In this document: positions 2,529 through 48,890 of the stretch, one piece after another
Numbering within the stretch: the stretch's first letter is position 1
Layout: the number at the start of each line of letters is the position of its first letter
Origin: a virus
IMG/VR virus record: IMGVR_UViG_3300025117_000087
Location: 1 to 50,528 of that record
Direction: 5' to 3' (one strand)
DNA length: 50,528 nucleotides
Translations under genes and position numbers: made by a program
Notes under the pieces: generated by a model
The model's input: the letters and a program-made list of their open reading frames with translations, nothing else
Database searches by the model: none
Told to the model about the DNA's origin: nothing

Positions 2529-5500
2529 GTCCTGTTTCTTTGCTCTGCTCTTCTGGCTGCACGGTTGTTGGCGTTGTAAATAGTCTCATCACCAACGATA
2601 ATTTTTATATTCCGGACAGCATCTTCGACTGATTGAAGGGCACCCAATATCTCATTAGAAGTTTTAATTGAAGTTTCGCTTTTTATAATATTGACCGGGG
2701 ACTTGCTCATTTTTGAGCTATCTGCAATTTCAATGGCATTAGCTAAAATATCCCTGAACATATTTGTATTTAAAACAATTTCCGGATTATATACGCTGTC
2801 CCCGATGAGTGCCAATTCAGGTTCATTAATAAAACCGCTGCCACCTGCATACGATTTTAACTTTATTTCATAATGTAAATTTTTCTGATTGAATTCTTCC
2901 GGCGTGATACCGCCTGCAAAATAAACTTTTTTTAGTTTTTCGTTCTCAGAGTAATTCTTCGCAAAATCAATTATATTTTCATATTTAAATTCAGTTCCTT
3001 CAAATAATGGATGTAGTTCATCTATAGATTCAATCAACGTTCCAATACTATTTATTAAATGTTTAATCGGCGTTTCAAAGCGATATTCTTCAGGCACAAG
3101 ATTGGACATTAATCCAAGCACATCCCCTATGACCTGGCTTACAAGTAATCGTATGTCCGGATCACGAACAAGCCATTCTGCATTCTTGCCAGGTATAACC
3201 CGGGAAGCATCACCTACAACGGTCATTGTTGGACCTTCAAATTTTGCGCCGGTTGCTAATGATTGAACTCCACTTTCAGCTACAGCCAAAGCGGTATAAA
3301 GTGCAGCAGCCAAACCTGCAAACGTTAAAAATCCAACAAGAGACTTGCTCGCTAATTCTTTGCCTAAAATTTCAACAAGTAAAATCGGAACCAAAGCCCT
3401 TAACCCTTTTAATGCTGCCAGAACGAATTCTTTAGTTCCACCTTTTGTGTCTGCTATTACTTGACCGATAGACGCCCCAAAACTGGTGGCGATTTGTGCG
3501 GCATTTTCTTCAAATACCTGTGATAAGTTTTCAAAAGTTATTCCCAAATCCGTAATATTGCCTTCGGCATCAACGGTAAATTTTACCATCGAAGCTATCA
3601 TTTCGTCTATGACGGTATCGAGAGCAGGCTGTAAATTCTTGATGAATTCAACCTGCTTTGCTAATAATTCTTCTCTCTTTTTTTGCTCTTTTTCTAAATT
3701 TTTGGTTCGTTTTTGCTCAGACTTGTCATATTCCTGCTCTGCTTTTGTAAGATATTTTTCGTCAACTTCTAATAGCTTGGCAGCAGAAAGAGATTTTTGG
3801 TTCTCAATTTGCTCATTGATATTTTCGATTATTGCCTGTTTTTCTTTTTGAGTCAGGTCTTCATTTTTGGTTATTGCTTCTTTTTCACGGTTGAGAGCTG
3901 TTAGCTTTTCAGTAAGGGAACGCTCTATTTGTGTTTTTTGTAATAAAAATTCATCTTCAATCTGGGATTCCAACAAATCAAGCAAACTGGCTTTTAATTT
4001 GTCGGCAGCATCTTGCTTGAGCTTGTTTATTCGTTCTTGCTTGTCTTTAGCTTTTTTGATTTCATCCTCAGGTGGAGGCTCCTCGATTGTTTCTTCATCC
4101 AAACCTGTAGGTGTCGTAACTTTTATTTCACCTTTTATTGTACCAAGCTTCTTTTCGATTACTTGCTTTATCGCATCAACTTTTTCAGATAAATTTTTAG
4201 CCTGGGTGGGACCTATTAATTTCCCGATTGTACCTTCGAGCGATAAAGCTCCTAATATTTTGTTGTAAGCAAGCTCAAGTTCATTTATGTTTTTCGCGTT
4301 TGTTATTTCATCTATATATTTTTTGTAGAATTTTTTGGCTGCATCCACACTTACAGTCTCACCATCAAATGCACTTTTGAAAAAGTTAACTATGCTGGTT
4401 GCAGCACCCGATAAAAATTTGTCGTTCAATAAATTAATACTGAATCCTTCCGCAGCGGTTTGGAAAAATGTTTCGCGGGCATCTATGACTTCTGCAGCTA
4501 TCCTGGTTTCAATGTTTTTTTGCAGTTCACCGGAATATTTCAGATACTGCTCTCGCAAATTGAATATTTGGTTCGTAGTATTGAAAGCAGAATTTTTTAA
4601 CAAGTCCAATTCACTCCTAAAATCTTTCGTACTGCCTATTACATCGGGATAAATTGATTTTAACTGACCCTGAACTTCCTTGAATCTGTTTTGCTCATCG
4701 GCTGTTAATTTTGACTTGCTGCCAAGTTCTTCGTATTCCCTTATTAATTTAGCTTGCAGGCTGTCCTGTTTCTCAGCTTCGCTCGATACCTTACCCATTG
4801 CATCCCTGACATCATTCGCAACCTCAGCATAGCCTTTTGAGGCATCTACGGCATCGGGATATTGCTGTGTGAGTTTATTTAAGATGCTCCAATATCTATC
4901 GGAATGCTGTCCTGTTTTCTCTTCCGAAGCTCCCAGCTTTTCAAATTCGTCAACCAAAGTAGTATTTGACTGAGCAAGTTTTATTTTCGCTGCGGTCAAA
5001 TCAATTTGCTTTTGTTTCAGGTCCTCAGCAGCCTTTGCATCTTCTAATTGTGTTTTTGCAGCATCGGCTGACGATTGATTTAATGTTTTCAAAACGCCGA
5101 TTAAAGTAATTGCACCGGCAATCGCTAGAAAGAATGGATTAGTTAATAAAGCTTTCGACAAGGCTCCAAACGATGTGGATGTAGCACCCAGGGCAGGCGC
5201 TAATTTAGTAGCCAGTGAAGATGCGAAATTTTTAATTGTATTTGTAGGAAGAATCTGTCCAAGTCCGCCAAGTCCTACCATCGTAGGCCCCATTTTTTCC
5301 AATACACTTAAAGCAACCGTTCCGGATTGTCCTAATAATTTAAATCCGGATTGAAAAATTCCACTTATTTTTTTCATAATAAGGGATGATTGGTTGGCAA
5401 TTCCCTGGCTGGCGACCTCAAAAGCCTGAGCCGCTACATTATTTTCAATGTCTGCCAAAACACCACTGTAAAAGTCTTTAGTCCTGGCAAAATTATCACC

Positions 5501-25200: not shown

Positions 25201-25299
25201 TTTAAACAAGATTTAAACAAGATTTAAACAAGATTTAAACAAGATTTAAAAGAAATTTAAAAGAAATTTAAAAGAAATTTAAAAGAAATTTAAAAGAAA
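25201..25299. repeat. Tandem array of an 11-base A-tract repeat running into a start codon
   Basis: Nine abutting 11-mers: four perfect TTTAAACAAGA (25201, 25212, 25223, 25234) followed by five perfect TTTAAAAGAAA (25245, 25256, 25267, 25278, 25289). The last A of the ninth copy is the A of the ATG at 25299. The period is close to one helical turn, so the AAA tracts are phased and the DNA is expected to be bent. The last copies also supply the purine-rich leader (AAAAGAAA) of the gene. Confidence 0.95.
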
Positions 25300-26702
25300 T
25301 GACAACGTTAGAATCGCTTAGAAAAAAAATAAAAGCCATTCCAATAAGAATGTTAGACACAATTGGAGTGCCTGATTTTGAAAAGAATATTTTTAATAAT
25401 TATAAAATATTTCCAATTGAATTGTTAGTCAAAGCCGATTGGAATTATAATACGGATGATGAATTCCAAAGTGAAAGACTTAGAAATAATTTAAAGAAAA
25501 GGGGACAGATAGAAAATATACATGTAAGAGAACTTGAAACCGGCTACTACGAAGTTATCAACGGTAATCACCGGCTCGATGAACTCACACTTCTTGCAAA
25601 AAGTTTTGTCCTGGCTTATGACCATGGAAAAATATCCTTATCCGAAGCACAAAGAATTACTATCGAAACGAACGAAACTGATTTTAAGCCAGACGATAAT
25701 AAGCTTTCTGCGATTCTAAATTCATTAGTCCTGGAATATGGAGAGGAAGATTTAAAAATAACAATTCCATTCACTGACGATGAATTCAGCGAACTTCTTA
25801 ATTTGACAATTGAGCCTCTCGACGTCGAATTAAATGAAGTTGATGAAGATGATTTCCAGGAAGAACCTCCGGAAGTTCCCAAAACCATAGCCGGAGATTT
25901 GTACGAACTTAACGGACACAGGCTGCTTTGTGGTGATTCCACAAAAGAAAACGACATTATAAAACTAATGGAGGGGAAAACTGCATCCCTGCTTTTTACC
26001 GACCCGCCGTATAATATTAATTATGCAGAATTTAATTTAAAGCGTTCAGATACCGGTAAAAACTGGACTGATTGCTCAGGCTGGCACGATAAGATGAGTG
26101 ATGCGGATTATCAGCTTTTCCTTTTTGATTTTTTAAAATTAGCGAAACAATCGTTAGGTGAATGGTCGCATTATTATATTTGGCATGCCTCTATTTATTA
26201 CAGAGAATTACTCAATGCTCTCGAGCTCAATGACATTCCTTATGACAAAGTACCAATACAATGGGTTAAACAAGTTGCTACATTAAGCTGGGTACATTAT
26301 AAACGAAAATCGGAACCTTGTATATTTGCCGGCAAGGGGGCTGTTAATGGAATGGGGGACGGTGCCAGATGGTTTGGTCCAAACAATGAAATTAATATCT
26401 GGGAAATAAACCGGGACCACAACGTTAATTATATTCATCCTACTCAAAAACCTGTGGCTCTGGCTGCTCGTGCGATTAACAACAGTTCGCAAAAGGATGA
26501 AATTGTATTGGATATGTTTCTTGGTTCAGGCTCAACTCTTATCGCCGCAGATGAACTTGACAGAATTTGTTTCGGAATGGAACTTGAACCTAAGTTTTGC
26601 GACGTTATTGTAAAAAGATACATCAAATATTGTGAAGATAAAAACAAAGAATGTGTCGTAATGCTTAACGGAAAAAATATCAATAAATCATATTTCGATT
26701 AA
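25299..26702 (+). CDS. ParB-domain / DNA N4- or N6-methyltransferase fusion
   Basis: 467 aa. Residues ~35-140 are a ParB/Srx-type domain (ELLVKADWN, GQIENIHVRELETGYYEVIN, NGNHRLDEL at 88-96). Residues ~195-455 are an amino-methyltransferase of the DNA_methylase N4/N6 class: DPPYN catalytic motif at 235-239, late motif I FLGSGST near residue 408, and target-recognition material between. Order DPPY then FxGSG is the beta class. It would modify phage DNA and protect it from host restriction. Fusions of this type recur next to terminase genes in Mu-like phages and may link DNA modification to packaging. It opens the rightward late operon, two bases before the small terminase. Confidence 0.85.
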   Translation: MTTLESLRKKIKAIPIRMLDTIGVPDFEKNIFNNYKIFPIELLVKADWNYNTDDEFQSERLRNNLKKRGQIENIHVRELETGYYEVINGNHRLDELTLLAKSFVLAYDHGKISLSEAQRITIETNETDFKPDDNKLSAILNSLVLEYGEEDLKITIPFTDDEFSELLNLTIEPLDVELNEVDEDDFQEEPPEVPKTIAGDLYELNGHRLLCGDSTKENDIIKLMEGKTASLLFTDPPYNINYAEFNLKRSDTGKNWTDCSGWHDKMSDADYQLFLFDFLKLAKQSLGEWSHYYIWHASIYYRELLNALELNDIPYDKVPIQWVKQVATLSWVHYKRKSEPCIFAGKGAVNGMGDGARWFGPNNEINIWEINRDHNVNYIHPTQKPVALAARAINNSSQKDEIVLDMFLGSGSTLIAADELDRICFGMELEPKFCDVIVKRYIKYCEDKNKECVVMLNGKNINKSYFD

Positions 26703-36525: not shown

Positions 36526-36896
36526 TATTTAAAATTTGTCATATAATTAATACAAATCGAGTCATATTCTTCTAACGTGCCATCCGTCATCGGTTTTACA
36601 GGAATGTCGAGCGTATGAGCCAACTTTATTTCCTCTCTCATTCCCGGACTTATCTTGTCGCCATACAAGCGTACTTCATCAATAAACCTCTTTTTGAATA
36701 AAGCGATATCATTCTTTATGCCTCGCTCTCTCTCTTCCGGTTCGTTATCGTTCAGAGCATGGCAGTCAACAAAATAATGAGCGAACGGAACCACGTCCGG
36801 CTCCTCTAGGTTTATTTTCCGGATAATCTGAATCACCTTATCCAAATTTCCTTCAACATCCCCGCCAAGAGGATGAGCGATATAAACAATTTTCAC
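36525..36896 (-). CDS. Nucleoside 2-deoxyribosyltransferase-like protein
   Basis: 123 aa. The start MKIVYIAHPLGGDVEGNLDK, the VPFAHYFVDCHALND segment, ERERGIKNDIALFKK and ISPGMREEIKLAH match small phage proteins with the 2-deoxyribosyltransferase/DUF4406 fold, which exchange bases on deoxynucleosides or have lost activity. A role in nucleotide supply or base modification is possible. Overlaps both neighbours by one to four bases. Confidence 0.7.
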   Translation of the reverse strand: MKIVYIAHPLGGDVEGNLDKVIQIIRKINLEEPDVVPFAHYFVDCHALNDNEPEERERGIKNDIALFKKRFIDEVRLYGDKISPGMREEIKLAHTLDIPVKPMTDGTLEEYDSICINYMTNFK

Positions 36897-37501
36897 AAGT
36901 ATATCCCTTCATTAATTTTAACTTCGTTTTGCTCACTATAACCATCTTTCATAAATCTTCCTGGAAACATTTTTTTGAACTGATGAAGCTTTTTAAGTTC
37001 CTCACCCTTAATTTTCCTTTCGTATATCTCTAATATCTCAGCTTCGGAATACCGGACGCCATCATCAAACTCGATAATTTGATTATCGCTGTCCCACTTA
37101 AATTTTTGCACCAACAAACCGGATTCCCAACAACTATAACTTTTAACTTCCTTATAATTCAGTTTGCTCTCCAACTCACTTATCTTTTTCTCAACCTCAA
37201 CCAGTTCAGCAGCAGCATCCTCAAACTTAAATTTTTCAACCATCTCTTTGAGCCGCTCTTTTTCCTCGATGAGCTTCCGCAACTCCTCAATGTTGATTTT
37301 TTTTCCTTTTTCCAATTCTTCCTTACTTATATTTTCCTTCAACTCAAAAGTTGCAAGCAAGGATCTATTTTCTTCACCGGAAGTTGCAAGTAAGGAGGTG
37401 ATTTTTGTTTTTAGCCTTCTCACTTGCAACTTTGACTCGTCGTCATTTTTCAACTCCAATTCAGCAATTTGCTGTTCATATTGTGATTTTAGTGTTGTCA
37501 T
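36893..37501 (-). CDS. Coiled-coil protein next to the putative origin
   Basis: 202 aa. Residues 1-115 are lysine/glutamate-rich helix with heptads (VEKFKFEDAAAELVEVEKKI); SLLAT occurs twice (about 36 and 47). The C-terminal ~90 residues form a globular part (CWESGLLVQKFKWDSDNQII) with FDDGVRYSEAEILEIYERK and FKKMFPGRFM. No family recognised. It is the first gene downstream of the repeat-rich 37541-37806 region, so a replication-accessory role is possible. Confidence 0.55.
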   Translation of the reverse strand: MTTLKSQYEQQIAELELKNDDESKLQVRRLKTKITSLLATSGEENRSLLATFELKENISKEELEKGKKINIEELRKLIEEKERLKEMVEKFKFEDAAAELVEVEKKISELESKLNYKEVKSYSCWESGLLVQKFKWDSDNQIIEFDDGVRYSEAEILEIYERKIKGEELKKLHQFKKMFPGRFMKDGYSEQNEVKINEGIYL

Positions 37502-37540
37502 TTTATATTTAACTTTTTATTTATCAAAGACATTAAATAT

Positions 37541-37806
37541 TGTTACAAGTGTTACAAATCCGTTACAACAGGTGTAACGCTCTAATTATTTATTATATCA
37601 AACACATACAAATTTTGTTACAATGTTGCACCAAAATTTCCCTATACTCTTTTCCTGTTCTCTATCCTTACTTACATGTCCTTGCTTACATGTGTCCTTT
37701 TCTCTATTTTGTTTATTTATTTATATATATAAGTTGTAACAATATGTAACGTATTTGATTTTTTAGGCAGTTAGTTTGTAACTTTTGTCTGTAACATATT
37801 GTAACA
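37541..37806. repeat. Mirrored clusters of TGTTACAA-type repeats, candidate replication origin
   Basis: This gene-free stretch (37502-37820) holds about ten copies of a 7-8 base motif. Left cluster, forward: 37541-37548, 37550-37557, 37561-37568 (C first), 37616-37623, a variant at 37624-37630 and one reversed copy at 37573-37579. Right cluster, mostly the reverse complement TTGTAACA: 37734-37741, 37745-37751, 37776-37782, 37790-37796 and 37799-37806. Between them lies ~100 bases of pyrimidine-rich then AT-rich DNA with a duplicated CTTACATGT. It adjoins the primase-helicase gene. Confidence 0.75.
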
Positions 37807-37820
37807 GCCTGTAATGTTTG

Positions 37821-40019
37821 TTAAAATTTGCTTTCTTCTTTATACAAAGATTCCTGTTTTTCATCGGCTTTTTTTACTACATAGACGCGTTTTATTTTAT
37901 CATTGAATCGTCTTACCACTTGTTTAAATCCCATATTCTTTAATATCTGCCCTAATTTAGTATAACTTAGCCTGATTGATGTTTCTTTTTGAATTGCATC
38001 GTAAATTTCGGTAGCTGTCATATATTGATACATATTAACCGTAACAATCTTATCGATGTCATAAGAATTGTTTGTTTCAATTTTAGGAGCATCAAACAAT
38101 TTTTGTATAATTTCTTCTTCCGGCGTTATAAGTTGATATTTAATGTTGCTCAAAGAAATGTTGTCTATGTCGCTCCCGGAAAACCAATATTTCCATCCGT
38201 CGTTCAGATAGCTTAATGCTTGAGCATAAAGCTGGTCAACATTAATAGTCTTGCTCAAATTAATTTTATTTGTTTCAACCACAAGGAATCTTCTATTGCC
38301 GGTCAGGTCTCCCAGGAACATAGCCTTGTTAACCGAGCCTATAAAACTGGCACGTCGCGGATGCGTAACGCTTCGCTTTTGGTAAGGTTTGCGTACACGG
38401 ATTCTGTCAATTGACATTAAAGATTTAAGGTGCCCAATTTCGTCACGGTTGACACTCTCCAGCTCATCGAGATTGATGATGAATGATTCGCAAAAATCAA
38501 TTTTAGAGTCTTTGTCGTTCGGATTAATTTGACTTATGGAATAATACTTCTGAAGTTGCTCAGGTATGAGGCGTCCGATTATAGTTGTTTTACCGATACC
38601 CTGAGAGCCGGAAAAAACTATACAGTTATGATTGAGTCCTCTTTCGGTTGCACACGCCACTACACCGATAATCCATTTAGTAAAGTAAGTAGTCCATAGA
38701 ACTTTTTGTTCATCAGGCACTTCAATCAAATTAATGTATTGTTGGATGTAATCCTCACCATCCCACCCGGGAAGATTGTTAAAGTAATCCTTGAAAGGAT
38801 GATAATCTCTTACGAAGTCAGAGTTTAAAACATATTCGAATTTGTTGTGTGTAAATTTGTAATTCATTTTGTGAAATTTTGTAAGCAGGCTGTCAACAAA
38901 CCTGTCGTCAATTTCCTGCCACCGCTCACTCGTATCTTTGTTCATAATTTCGACATGCGAAGTAACAATATTGTAACGAAGCTGATAATAATTATCGAGG
39001 TATTCCTCGATGATGTCTATTTCACATTTCTTTTTATAATTAAACAAGTTCGATTCTTTCCCATGACCATCTTTTTCGTTATCACTGCCTCCATTATTCC
39101 CATTCGACTTCTTTATACCCAAAACAGACTGATGTTTTTCCAGGACTTTGGTTATATCGCATCCATGATATTTGGCAAGCCAGATAACCGAGGCAATCGT
39201 CGGACGTTTTGAGCGGTGCTGGATGCGGTACTTCGTTCCTTTCTGGTCATCCGGAGACCAGTTATCAATGAGCCGTATAGCCGTTGGCTCGTCAAAAGTA
39301 TTGCCGATACCGGATACTACCTTACCCCAATCAATGTAATCCATTTGTGTGGGAATGTGTTTTAACAGTTCCGCTGCCTGCTCTTCGGTTATAGGGTCAT
39401 TCTTTTTTGAAGGTTTAAAATCATCCTCAGCATTAACGCTGCTTACAATTTTATTAAGGTCCGCCAGGTTTAATTGTCTGTAATTAATTATAACTTCGGC
39501 TTTTGTGTTTCCGAAGAACATCCTGTCTATATTTTTACAGCTCCGGTCAGCATCGTATTTCTCAATAAAAGCTGCTGAGATTTGACTGTACTTGGCAGCA
39601 TCGGTAATTATTTCCGGAAGCAGGAAAACGATACGGAACTTATTATGCTGGTCCGTGTGCGAAGGGGAGGTGTAGAGCAACAGGGCGTTTTCCTGCAGCC
39701 ACGTGTCTTCTATTGCGTCTTGGAAGGCAAAATAACCTTCAGACAGTCTTTTCTTAACCTTGTCGTATTTTTTAGTAACCTGGCTGTAAACTTTAAGTTC
39801 ATTGTCAATATCTATGGGGAGAAGCTGGGCTTTCTCGATGTCAATAGTTTGAGGCTTGCCTGAGCCGGCAGCTTGTTTCAGGACACCCTGGGAGAAAGCA
39901 AAGCCGCTTTTAATATGTTTCGCAAGTTCGTCAGTCGTAAATTTTACATTTTTCCATCCGCGAGAGCGCGGGTCGCCTTTATCAATAATATTCTTGTTAA
40001 TGCTTAATTCAAAATCCAT
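37821..40019 (-). CDS. VirE-type primase-helicase (BT4734-like N-terminus, PriCT_2, SF3-like ATPase)
   Basis: 732 aa. Residues ~1-190 resemble the BT4734-like primase domain (DIEKAQLLPIDIDNE, ALLLYTSPSHTDQHNKFRIV); ~215-300 are PriCT_2-like (LLKHIPTQMDYIDWGKVVSG, WSPDDQKG); ~390-640 are the VirE ATPase with Walker A FSGSQGIGKTT near residue 470, FIINLDELE as motif B, and TGNRRFLVVE; the last ~80 residues are a winged-helix-like tail (YTKLGQILKNMGFKQVVRRF). It would open the origin, prime and unwind DNA. The repeat region lies just past its 3' end. Confidence 0.87.
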   Translation of the reverse strand: MDFELSINKNIIDKGDPRSRGWKNVKFTTDELAKHIKSGFAFSQGVLKQAAGSGKPQTIDIEKAQLLPIDIDNELKVYSQVTKKYDKVKKRLSEGYFAFQDAIEDTWLQENALLLYTSPSHTDQHNKFRIVFLLPEIITDAAKYSQISAAFIEKYDADRSCKNIDRMFFGNTKAEVIINYRQLNLADLNKIVSSVNAEDDFKPSKKNDPITEEQAAELLKHIPTQMDYIDWGKVVSGIGNTFDEPTAIRLIDNWSPDDQKGTKYRIQHRSKRPTIASVIWLAKYHGCDITKVLEKHQSVLGIKKSNGNNGGSDNEKDGHGKESNLFNYKKKCEIDIIEEYLDNYYQLRYNIVTSHVEIMNKDTSERWQEIDDRFVDSLLTKFHKMNYKFTHNKFEYVLNSDFVRDYHPFKDYFNNLPGWDGEDYIQQYINLIEVPDEQKVLWTTYFTKWIIGVVACATERGLNHNCIVFSGSQGIGKTTIIGRLIPEQLQKYYSISQINPNDKDSKIDFCESFIINLDELESVNRDEIGHLKSLMSIDRIRVRKPYQKRSVTHPRRASFIGSVNKAMFLGDLTGNRRFLVVETNKINLSKTINVDQLYAQALSYLNDGWKYWFSGSDIDNISLSNIKYQLITPEEEIIQKLFDAPKIETNNSYDIDKIVTVNMYQYMTATEIYDAIQKETSIRLSYTKLGQILKNMGFKQVVRRFNDKIKRVYVVKKADEKQESLYKEESKF

Positions 40020-44291: not shown

Positions 44292-44430
44292 TTATAATTC
44301 GATATGCATTAATTAAATCAAATAAATTTGTTTTGTATTCCGGTTTATCGTTAAATTTCACTGACCTGGCTAAAATCAAATACTTGTCATCCGCTTTTGG
44401 AAATAGTTCATTTTGTTTATATTTAGCCAT
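44251..44430 (-). CDS. Small hypothetical protein
   Basis: 59 aa from the ATG at 44430 (MAKYKQNELFPKADDKYLIL), ending in a basic KQNKSTRNKKN tail. The start lies 20 bases after a terminator-like hairpin, so read-through or a weak promoter is needed. Length and composition fit a real small phage gene; no family recognised. Confidence 0.45.
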   Translation of the reverse strand: MAKYKQNELFPKADDKYLILARSVKFNDKPEYKTNLFDLINAYRIINEKQNKSTRNKKN

Positions 44431-44450
44431 AAAAATTTTATTCTTAAAAA

Positions 44451-44508
44451 ATCCGGGCAGTCTTAACGTCTAAATTGCGAGGGAATAACAATTACACTCC
44501 GCCCGGAT
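44451..44508 (-). terminator. Terminator-like hairpin with a long loop
   Basis: ATCCGGGC (44451-44458) and GCCCGGAT (44501-44508) pair perfectly and are followed on the - strand by six Ts. The loop is 42 bases, long for a simple terminator, so a structured small RNA or attenuator is also possible. It begins ten bases after the stop of the 44519 gene. Confidence 0.6.
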
Positions 44509-44518
44509 ATATCATGAG

Positions 44519-47984: not shown

Positions 47985-48890
47985 TCATAGCCTGCATTTG
48001 TAATCCGTTTCGTATTTGGAAAAAACATGTTGGAGCTCGCTTAAAAATTCTTCGTAGTCATTTTTAATGTAACTCGTCTTAGGTTCGGCTTTGGGTGAAG
48101 GCTCAAGTTTAACTTCCGAGAGTTTTGTATCTTCAAACGGATGTACGGGAGGTATTTTTTTACCTATATTTGAAACGTTCATCTGAGTTTCTTGTCCCGT
48201 TTTCGGGTGAATGAACGTACGGGTAAAATTGCTTTCATCATTCATATTAATATTAGAATTATTTTTGTTGGGATTCATACCCGGAATGCTCCAATTCCGT
48301 GGTTTATTTTCATCAGAATCGTTACTCAGGCATTTTATATCGGAGTTAGGAAGATTTTGAACGGAATTGGAATTATTTTTGTTAGGGTTCATACTCAGAA
48401 TATTCTGAGTATGAAATTCGTTTTTTTGAGGAACTCTATTAGAATTAACGGATTGCATAAATTCAAAATCTTTTCTAAGATTTGATACAAAATGTTGACT
48501 TACCCGGCATGTTTCCGCAATTTTACCGTCGCTCCATTGCACCCATTCCATATCATTTAATAATTTTTCAACAGCATTTTTCTTGTCTCCGTTTGTCCGG
48601 CGCAGTCCATGCGAAGAATTGGCACCTACTGCATAAAGTATGGCGTCCCGTTTTGTGCCTTCAATAATTTCGCAGTCAATTTCTTTAGACCCAAGTTTTC
48701 TTACCGCATAATACCTGTGGAATCCGTCTGCCAGCCAGTAAATTTCATCGGCATTGAAAACGGTAACGGGTGGGAATATTGCTCCCGACACCATTAATTC
48801 ATGGTATTCTTCGACTATCCTAAAGTCAAGTACTGCTCTTGCCTGGATACCACCGTCAACTCTAATGCTGTTTAGTTCTAATTTTATCAT
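47985..48890 (-). CDS. ParB-like N-terminal domain protein with central palindrome
   Basis: 301 aa. Residues 1-115 match the phage ParB-N type: LNSIRVDGGIQARAVLDFRI, ADGFHRYYAVRKLG (the GxxR-type nucleotide-binding motif), and ANSSHGLRRTNGDKKNAVEK. Residues ~116-150 are a helix-turn-helix (GKIAETCRVSQHFVSNLRKD). The rest is asparagine/serine-rich and unfolded-looking with a repeated MNPNKNNSN. There is no ParA partner. Phage ParB-like proteins may partition, regulate or cleave DNA; here regulation or DNA organisation near the early promoter is most likely. Its coding sequence contains the palindrome at 48388-48415. Confidence 0.78.
   Translation of the reverse strand: MIKLELNSIRVDGGIQARAVLDFRIVEEYHELMVSGAIFPPVTVFNADEIYWLADGFHRYYAVRKLGSKEIDCEIIEGTKRDAILYAVGANSSHGLRRTNGDKKNAVEKLLNDMEWVQWSDGKIAETCRVSQHFVSNLRKDFEFMQSVNSNRVPQKNEFHTQNILSMNPNKNNSNSVQNLPNSDIKCLSNDSDENKPRNWSIPGMNPNKNNSNINMNDESNFTRTFIHPKTGQETQMNVSNIGKKIPPVHPFEDTKLSEVKLEPSPKAEPKTSYIKNDYEEFLSELQHVFSKYETDYKCRL
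48388..48415. repeat. 28-bp perfect palindrome inside the parB-like gene
   Basis: The left arm TTCATACTCAGAAT (48388-48401) is the exact reverse complement of the right arm ATTCTGAGTATGAA (48402-48415), with no spacer and no mismatch. Its left arm is the end of a 32-base segment (48370-48401) that is 28/32 identical to 48256-48287. A candidate binding site for the ParB-like protein it lies in. Confidence 0.9.

Follow-up and report, generated by a model that had tools for sequence, protein, structure and literature searches.

The viral DNA analyzed here, a stretch of 50,528 nucleotides that we call the window, contains a gap of 319 bp (37502–37820) between the stop of a gene for a primase-helicase (37821–40019, minus strand) and the start of a gene for a coiled-coil-like protein (36893–37501, minus strand), both of which are read leftward. 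The entire gap is our candidate replication origin. It is the largest gene-free stretch of the early region according to the list of open reading frames, the next one being about 227 bp long (44292–44518). Ten exact copies of GTTACA or its reverse complement TGTAAC lie within 37542–37805, out of 25 across the entire 50.5 kb, and 0.62 copies would be expected in the gap, where 20,000 dinucleotide shuffles never yielded more than five. TGTTACAA is found exactly five times in the gap and not at all in the rest of the window. When all 400-bp windows were compared, the array was the top repeated-hexamer cluster, with a -log10 P of 14.6 (7.5 for the runner-up). A weight matrix built from the ten exact copies added two copies with one mismatch each, GTTGCA at 37625 and ATTACA at 37810, which a preliminary description of this DNA had overlooked when it counted about ten repeats in the gap.

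The copies form two halves of opposed orientation, as that description had claimed; the exact ones number four forward and one reverse in the left half and five reverse in the right. The left half opens with three outer copies on the plus strand (37542–37547, 37551–37556, and 37562–37567), followed by a lone reversed copy (37573–37578, minus strand), the counterpart of the single reversed copy that relatives have at ~44 bp from their inner pair. With GTTGCA included, the inner left side becomes a tandem pair on the plus strand (37617–37622 and 37625–37630, 8 bp apart), and this pair faces an inner right pair on the minus strand (37735–37740 and 37745–37750, 10 bp apart) across a spacer of ~102 bp (37633–37734). 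The outer copies of the right half, all on the minus strand, are located at 37777–37782, 37790–37795, 37800–37805, and, for the degenerate ATTACA, 37810–37815. Counted in gene direction from the stop of the primase-helicase, the array reads 5+ (degenerate), 15+, 25+, 38+, 70+, and 80+, then the spacer, then 190- (degenerate), 198-, 242+, 253-, 264-, and 273-; the first exact copy is therefore 15 bp past the stop. The single reversed copy that relatives have in the 5′ half of the array is absent from that half in the window.

The spacer is pyrimidine-rich and then AT-rich on the plus strand, in agreement with the preliminary description, and the 40-bp stretches of its AT part (about 37701–37740) are among the least stable 0.1–1.3% of the window. 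In gene direction, TTATATATATAAATAAATAAA, which is part of this easily melted DNA, comes first and is followed by a purine-rich stretch. The GC skew over 5 kb was -0.29 to the left of the gap vs. -0.07 to the right, with no sign change, and it tracks gene orientation. A search of Rfam gave no credible match, no terminal repeats were found in the record, a direct search of phages and viral contigs for the array or its DNA gave no match, and neither did a single-protein scan of viral contigs.

The adjoining gene does encode a primase-helicase, as first described, and its helicase domain is VapE-like (PF05272, 7.6e-39). The protein consists of a primase-like N-terminus, a VapE-like SF3-type helicase at residues 418–616, and a C-terminal winged helix modeled at residues 652–717 (37869–38066, minus strand); we propose that it is the initiator. 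Its best match was PriRep1 on dsDNA (7pds), both by sequence (E 1.5e-20) and by fold (E 5.2e-20), which places the helicase in the SaPI PriRep/Rep family. Signals for PriCT-2, HTH_33, and DUF3874 were weak and below the Pfam cut-offs. AlphaFold, run on the whole protein and on the C-terminal 99 residues, predicted the winged helix at about 652–717 with a pLDDT of about 76–92 for the block, and gave low confidence for the N-terminal 208 residues. The modeled winged helix aligns with many winged-helix DNA-binding proteins (VIA-align Z up to 7.1, a level that common folds reach), and no single close solved relative of it was found, the best Foldseek E being 0.05.

The preliminary description had made conservation of the repeats in close relatives a test of its reading. 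Because the conserved feature turned out to be the architecture and not TGTTACAA, and because the nearest relative ends short of the origin, we recast this test for distant loci, in many of which the architecture recurred with another repeat sequence. The strongest repeated-hexamer cluster was located in each of 44 non-redundant distant loci with a VapE-type helicase. In 25 of the 44, this top cluster fell within the 400 bp from -70 to +330 of the stop of the VapE-helicase gene (3.3 expected; maximum of 14 in 200,000 simulations). A score of at least 7 was reached at the stop in 23 of 44 loci; elsewhere, it was reached by 9 of the 864 windows and 4 of the 134 non-coding stretches that were compared. 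A cluster was present at the stop for 16 of 24 fused primase-helicases vs. 7 of 20 shorter proteins. The hexamer varies among loci (GTTACA, GGAACA, GTGGTA, GTGATA, GACTAC, ACTTAT, GTAGTA in locus L007, and others). In about half of the VapE-type loci, most stand-alone helicases among them, the stop had no such cluster.

Once the pattern was known, a second set of about ten further distant loci was scanned, and a cluster at the stop was found only in L115, L120/L121, and L122, with a sign order that is not canonical, so that the rule is common but not universal. Among named elements, the cluster directly follows the gene in the streptococcal satellites Javan285 and Javan724, Lactobacillus phiJB, and Paenibacillus phage Rosalind, and it is absent from this place in Javan21, P12024L, Leuconostoc CHA, BF1-2, and PM116P4. 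Displaced clusters behind another gene were seen in L054, L031, Lactococcus phage 1358 (L106), and Flavobacterium phage mumin6-1 (L102); in the last of these (3644–4650), a nuclease gene annotated with PF10544 stands between the VapE gene and a cluster of nine GGTAAC copies, which gives the impression of an insertion that has separated initiator and origin. The cluster is far from the gene for stand-alone helicases of the phi38:2 type. Strong clusters, possibly origins, were also noted 2.5–6.8 kb away in VapE loci that have none at the stop (L012 12–345, L013 2448–2794, and L028 1263–1592), the one in L012 being a mirrored set of 13 ACATAC copies. In Cellulophaga phage phi18:1 (L005), gp26 is a helicase gene and is followed by a cluster of TGACCA iterons; the virE genes gp23 and gp26 of this phage have been termed virulence-related (PMC11946311).

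The positive loci share a geometry. Like-oriented neighbors are mostly 7–11 bp apart, frequent distances between opposite ones are about 24 and 41–53 bp, and tandem inner pairs stand on both sides of the spacer in 13 loci. In 19 of 22 loci, the copies flanking the largest central gap had opposite orientations (p 4e-4), and the spacer, with a median length of 90 bp, had an AT content of 72%, compared with 60% in its locus (Wilcoxon p 5e-5), both p-values being somewhat optimistic because the loci are mutually related. Other non-coding stretches were only 2 points higher in AT than their own locus. The orientation asymmetry summed over loci was 108, vs. 57 ± 9 for random signs. The most regular locus, L078, is a near-perfect mirror, with copies at 6+, 17+, 41-, 84+, and 92+ before the spacer and at 176-, 184-, 228+, 261-, and 269- after it. 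Exceptions are L030 (all copies direct), L050 and L060 (other polarity), and L080 (palindromic motif). A universal motif polarity was dropped, since L050 and L060 read the opposite way and L030 is all direct, and the purine/pyrimidine tract of the spacer was not significant as a family feature across loci.

An annotated origin of the same plan is known from Streptococcus thermophilus phage Sfi21, whose record (NC_000872, misc_feature) describes an "origin of replication, 302 bp non-coding region, phage inhibitory sequence" beginning at the stop of the D5/SF3 gene. When this phage was used as a positive control with the scan unchanged, nine copies of AGTAAC/GTTACT came out as the top cluster (score 11.3–12.1) in the 13.7 kb that were scanned, and opposed inner pairs (63/71 and 146/154, each 8 bp apart) faced each other across TATATTTATAAATAAATAAAT...TATATATAGAGAGAGA. 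The window resembles Sfi21 in having a non-coding region of ~300 bp just after a helicase gene of the D5/SF3 kind, opposed tandem inner pairs, and, between them, an AT-rich spacer, which in Sfi21 has the form ATAAATAAAT...GAGAGA. Sfi21 differs in that its helicase is of the DUF5906/Pox_D5 type without a VapE hit, its primase is on a separate gene, and its outer copies have another sign order. The recurrence of one layout with different repeats after the corresponding gene of numerous distant phages, together with the annotated origin of Sfi21, makes the gap very probably the place where replication starts and supports the iteron-origin reading that the preliminary description had put forward.

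The rep-ori of SaPIs and PICIs is reportedly the subject of work by Ubeda et al. from 2007 and 2012. In SaPIs, the origin is reported to follow rep immediately and to be recognized by the C-terminus of the Rep protein, and Rep appears to bind as two hexamers (PMC7581432). PICI origins always consist of two sets of iterons around an AT-rich region, the rep-ori cassette supports plasmid replication, and this organization was stated to be absent from other known bacterial replicons (PMC6092414). These reports on the place of the origin, its reading by the C-terminus, and the layout of the iterons support an analogy with the gap (PMC7581432, PMC6092414), which is likewise immediately 3′ of the gene for an initiator of the same helicase family (7pds), one whose C-terminal domain is modeled as a winged helix. 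The element of the window is of a known kind, a probable iteron origin 3′ of a primase-helicase gene. The iteron sequence is different, however, and SaPIs and PICIs are small satellites that depend on the structural genes of a helper, whereas genes for terminase, portal, and major head proteins are present in the 50.5-kb record itself. Because it encodes these head and packaging proteins, the record is not a PICI.

The alpha protein of phage P4, which also unites a primase, an SF3-type helicase, and a C-terminal winged helix in one polypeptide, binds iterons at two elements, ori and crr, that are far apart and not mirrored around one spacer. The window protein is predicted to have this combination of domains, and the window has a single cluster of the motif in place of two distant elements. 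P4 alpha has been discussed alongside the crenarchaeal plasmid pRN1, and it differs further in having a Toprim primase of the bacterial type (PMC4234260).

It might be argued that the repeats are operators, through which a repressor or the initiator controls the leftward genes from 36893 on, and that replication starts elsewhere. The gap does lie ahead of the start of a gene, and the iteron at 37617 is overlapped by a promoter-like -35/TATAAT pair (37621–37592, minus strand), although such matches are no commoner here than in shuffles. Initiators often regulate their own region as well. Across loci, however, the array stays at the end of the helicase gene and the next gene varies, twelve copies, arranged as two opposed sets with AT-rich DNA between them, exceed what an operator needs, and the Sfi21 annotated origin is built to the same plan, so that we regard control of the leftward genes as a very unlikely explanation of the array.

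The functional element could also be a single-stranded stem-loop, with repeats that matter mainly by pairing with each other. Precedent exists in pRN1, the essential origin of which is a single stem-loop of ~100 nt without iterons, downstream of a gene for a protein with primase, SF3 helicase, and winged helix (PMC4234260), a gene order that the window shares. Folding of the gap strand was indeed more favorable than that of shuffled versions (z -2.9, and between -1.5 and -5.6 for relatives), but the opposed iterons account for this, since opposed repeats necessarily fold. In contrast to pRN1, the gap has ten exact iterons; tandem copies 7–11 bp apart on one strand serve no stem, and initiators of the SaPI type reportedly recognize their iterons as double-stranded DNA. 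A stem-loop of the pRN1 kind is accordingly very unlikely to be what counts in the gap. That the repeats are a centromere-like partition site for a protein such as the 47985–48890 product, which matches the ParB-like family phrog_1033 (3.3e-20), is extremely unlikely, because that gene is 10 kb distant, phage ParB-like domains often do not belong to partition proteins, and in many loci the array comes right after the helicase gene and has a motif that tracks the helicase C-terminus. A DNA methyltransferase with a ParB-like domain is also encoded in the window (25299–26702, plus strand), where it adjoins packaging genes.

With regard to the protein that reads the array, the preliminary description had left a choice between the tail of the primase and the 36893 product. 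Motif similarity was correlated with C-terminal similarity across loci (Mantel 0.33, p<2e-4), and the partial correlation at constant helicase similarity was 0.195 (p 0.013); the reverse partial correlation was not significant (p 0.13). This modest evidence, together with the winged-helix model, points to the tail, and the C-terminal winged helix of the primase-helicase is predicted to be the most likely iteron reader. The choice of the 36893 product, on the other hand, was not borne out: it had no relative in the phage collection, no similar gene was seen at the same place in other loci, and the genes downstream of the array in those loci are mostly unrelated to each other. We consider the 36893 protein to be probably a bystander. 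Its coding sequence contains two direct copies and one inverted copy of AAGTTGCAAGYAAGGA (37348–37432), a possible hairpin.

The nearest relative, L006, from an Ignavibacteriaceae MAG, is 60% identical over helicase residues 322–602 and ends before the origin. Its missing 3′ end and origin were sought elsewhere in its assembly and not found; GTTACA pairs in that assembly were in modest excess (13 vs. 8 for a reversed-pattern control). Early genes of L006 are 47–63% identical to those of the window, which suggests an Ignavibacteria-like host, and the host is probably a member of Ignavibacteriota or Bacteroidota, another difference from the SaPIs and PICIs. L006, the closest in helicase, has a Prim-Pol N-terminus instead (L006 7020–7900), and the primase N-terminus of the window protein (residues 1–300; 39120–40019) is 46–53% identical to proteins with different helicases (L066–L069). 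Judging from these few cases, the primase seems to be exchanged, while helicase, winged helix, and origin seem to move together. Three loci with the same primase N-terminus and a non-VapE helicase have clusters after the stop (L067, GTACAC at about +325; L068, CAATCA at +13; L069, AGTGAC at +9), and the D5_N-type L066 has no repeat cluster after the stop of the matching gene.

We think it very probable that the gap is the replication origin of this phage, with the GTTACA array read by the C-terminal winged helix of the primase-helicase itself and two opposed rings opening the AT-rich spacer. Judging from homology and the model, the winged helix would bind the GTTACA copies, and each of the two halves of opposite polarity would nucleate one helicase ring, the number of rings being suggested by the layout, so that the rings stand opposite one another with the ~102-bp spacer between them. 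They would then strain and open the AT-rich element, the predicted melting site on grounds of stability, and load on the separated strands. The N-terminal primase domain may lay the first primers, and two forks would presumably diverge.

A broader proposal, which we put forward tentatively and which falls somewhat short of an even chance, is that phages and satellites with SF3 helicases share one origin grammar from Streptococcus to Ignavibacteria. It would run from outer copies through a single reversed copy, ~45 bp, and a tandem inner pair to an AT-rich spacer of ~90 bp, followed by the mirror image, and would position two helicase rings head to head; the iteron of 6–8 bp and its winged helix would change together, and the N-terminal primase would be swapped freely. 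In the literature searched, most subscription papers being outside its reach, we found no description of a mirrored spacing that recurs across phyla with interchangeable repeats.

The finding offers a rule by which the origins of many uncultured phages can be located from sequence, namely a mirrored hexamer array directly after the gene for a VapE/D5-type helicase. The loci surveyed and Sfi21 indicate that this organization is widespread in ordinary tailed phages, contrary to what has been stated for other bacterial replicons (PMC6092414). The recurring geometry makes the head-to-head loading of two SF3 rings on one origin testable, and the varying motif provides a natural set of pairs for the specificity between initiators and origins.
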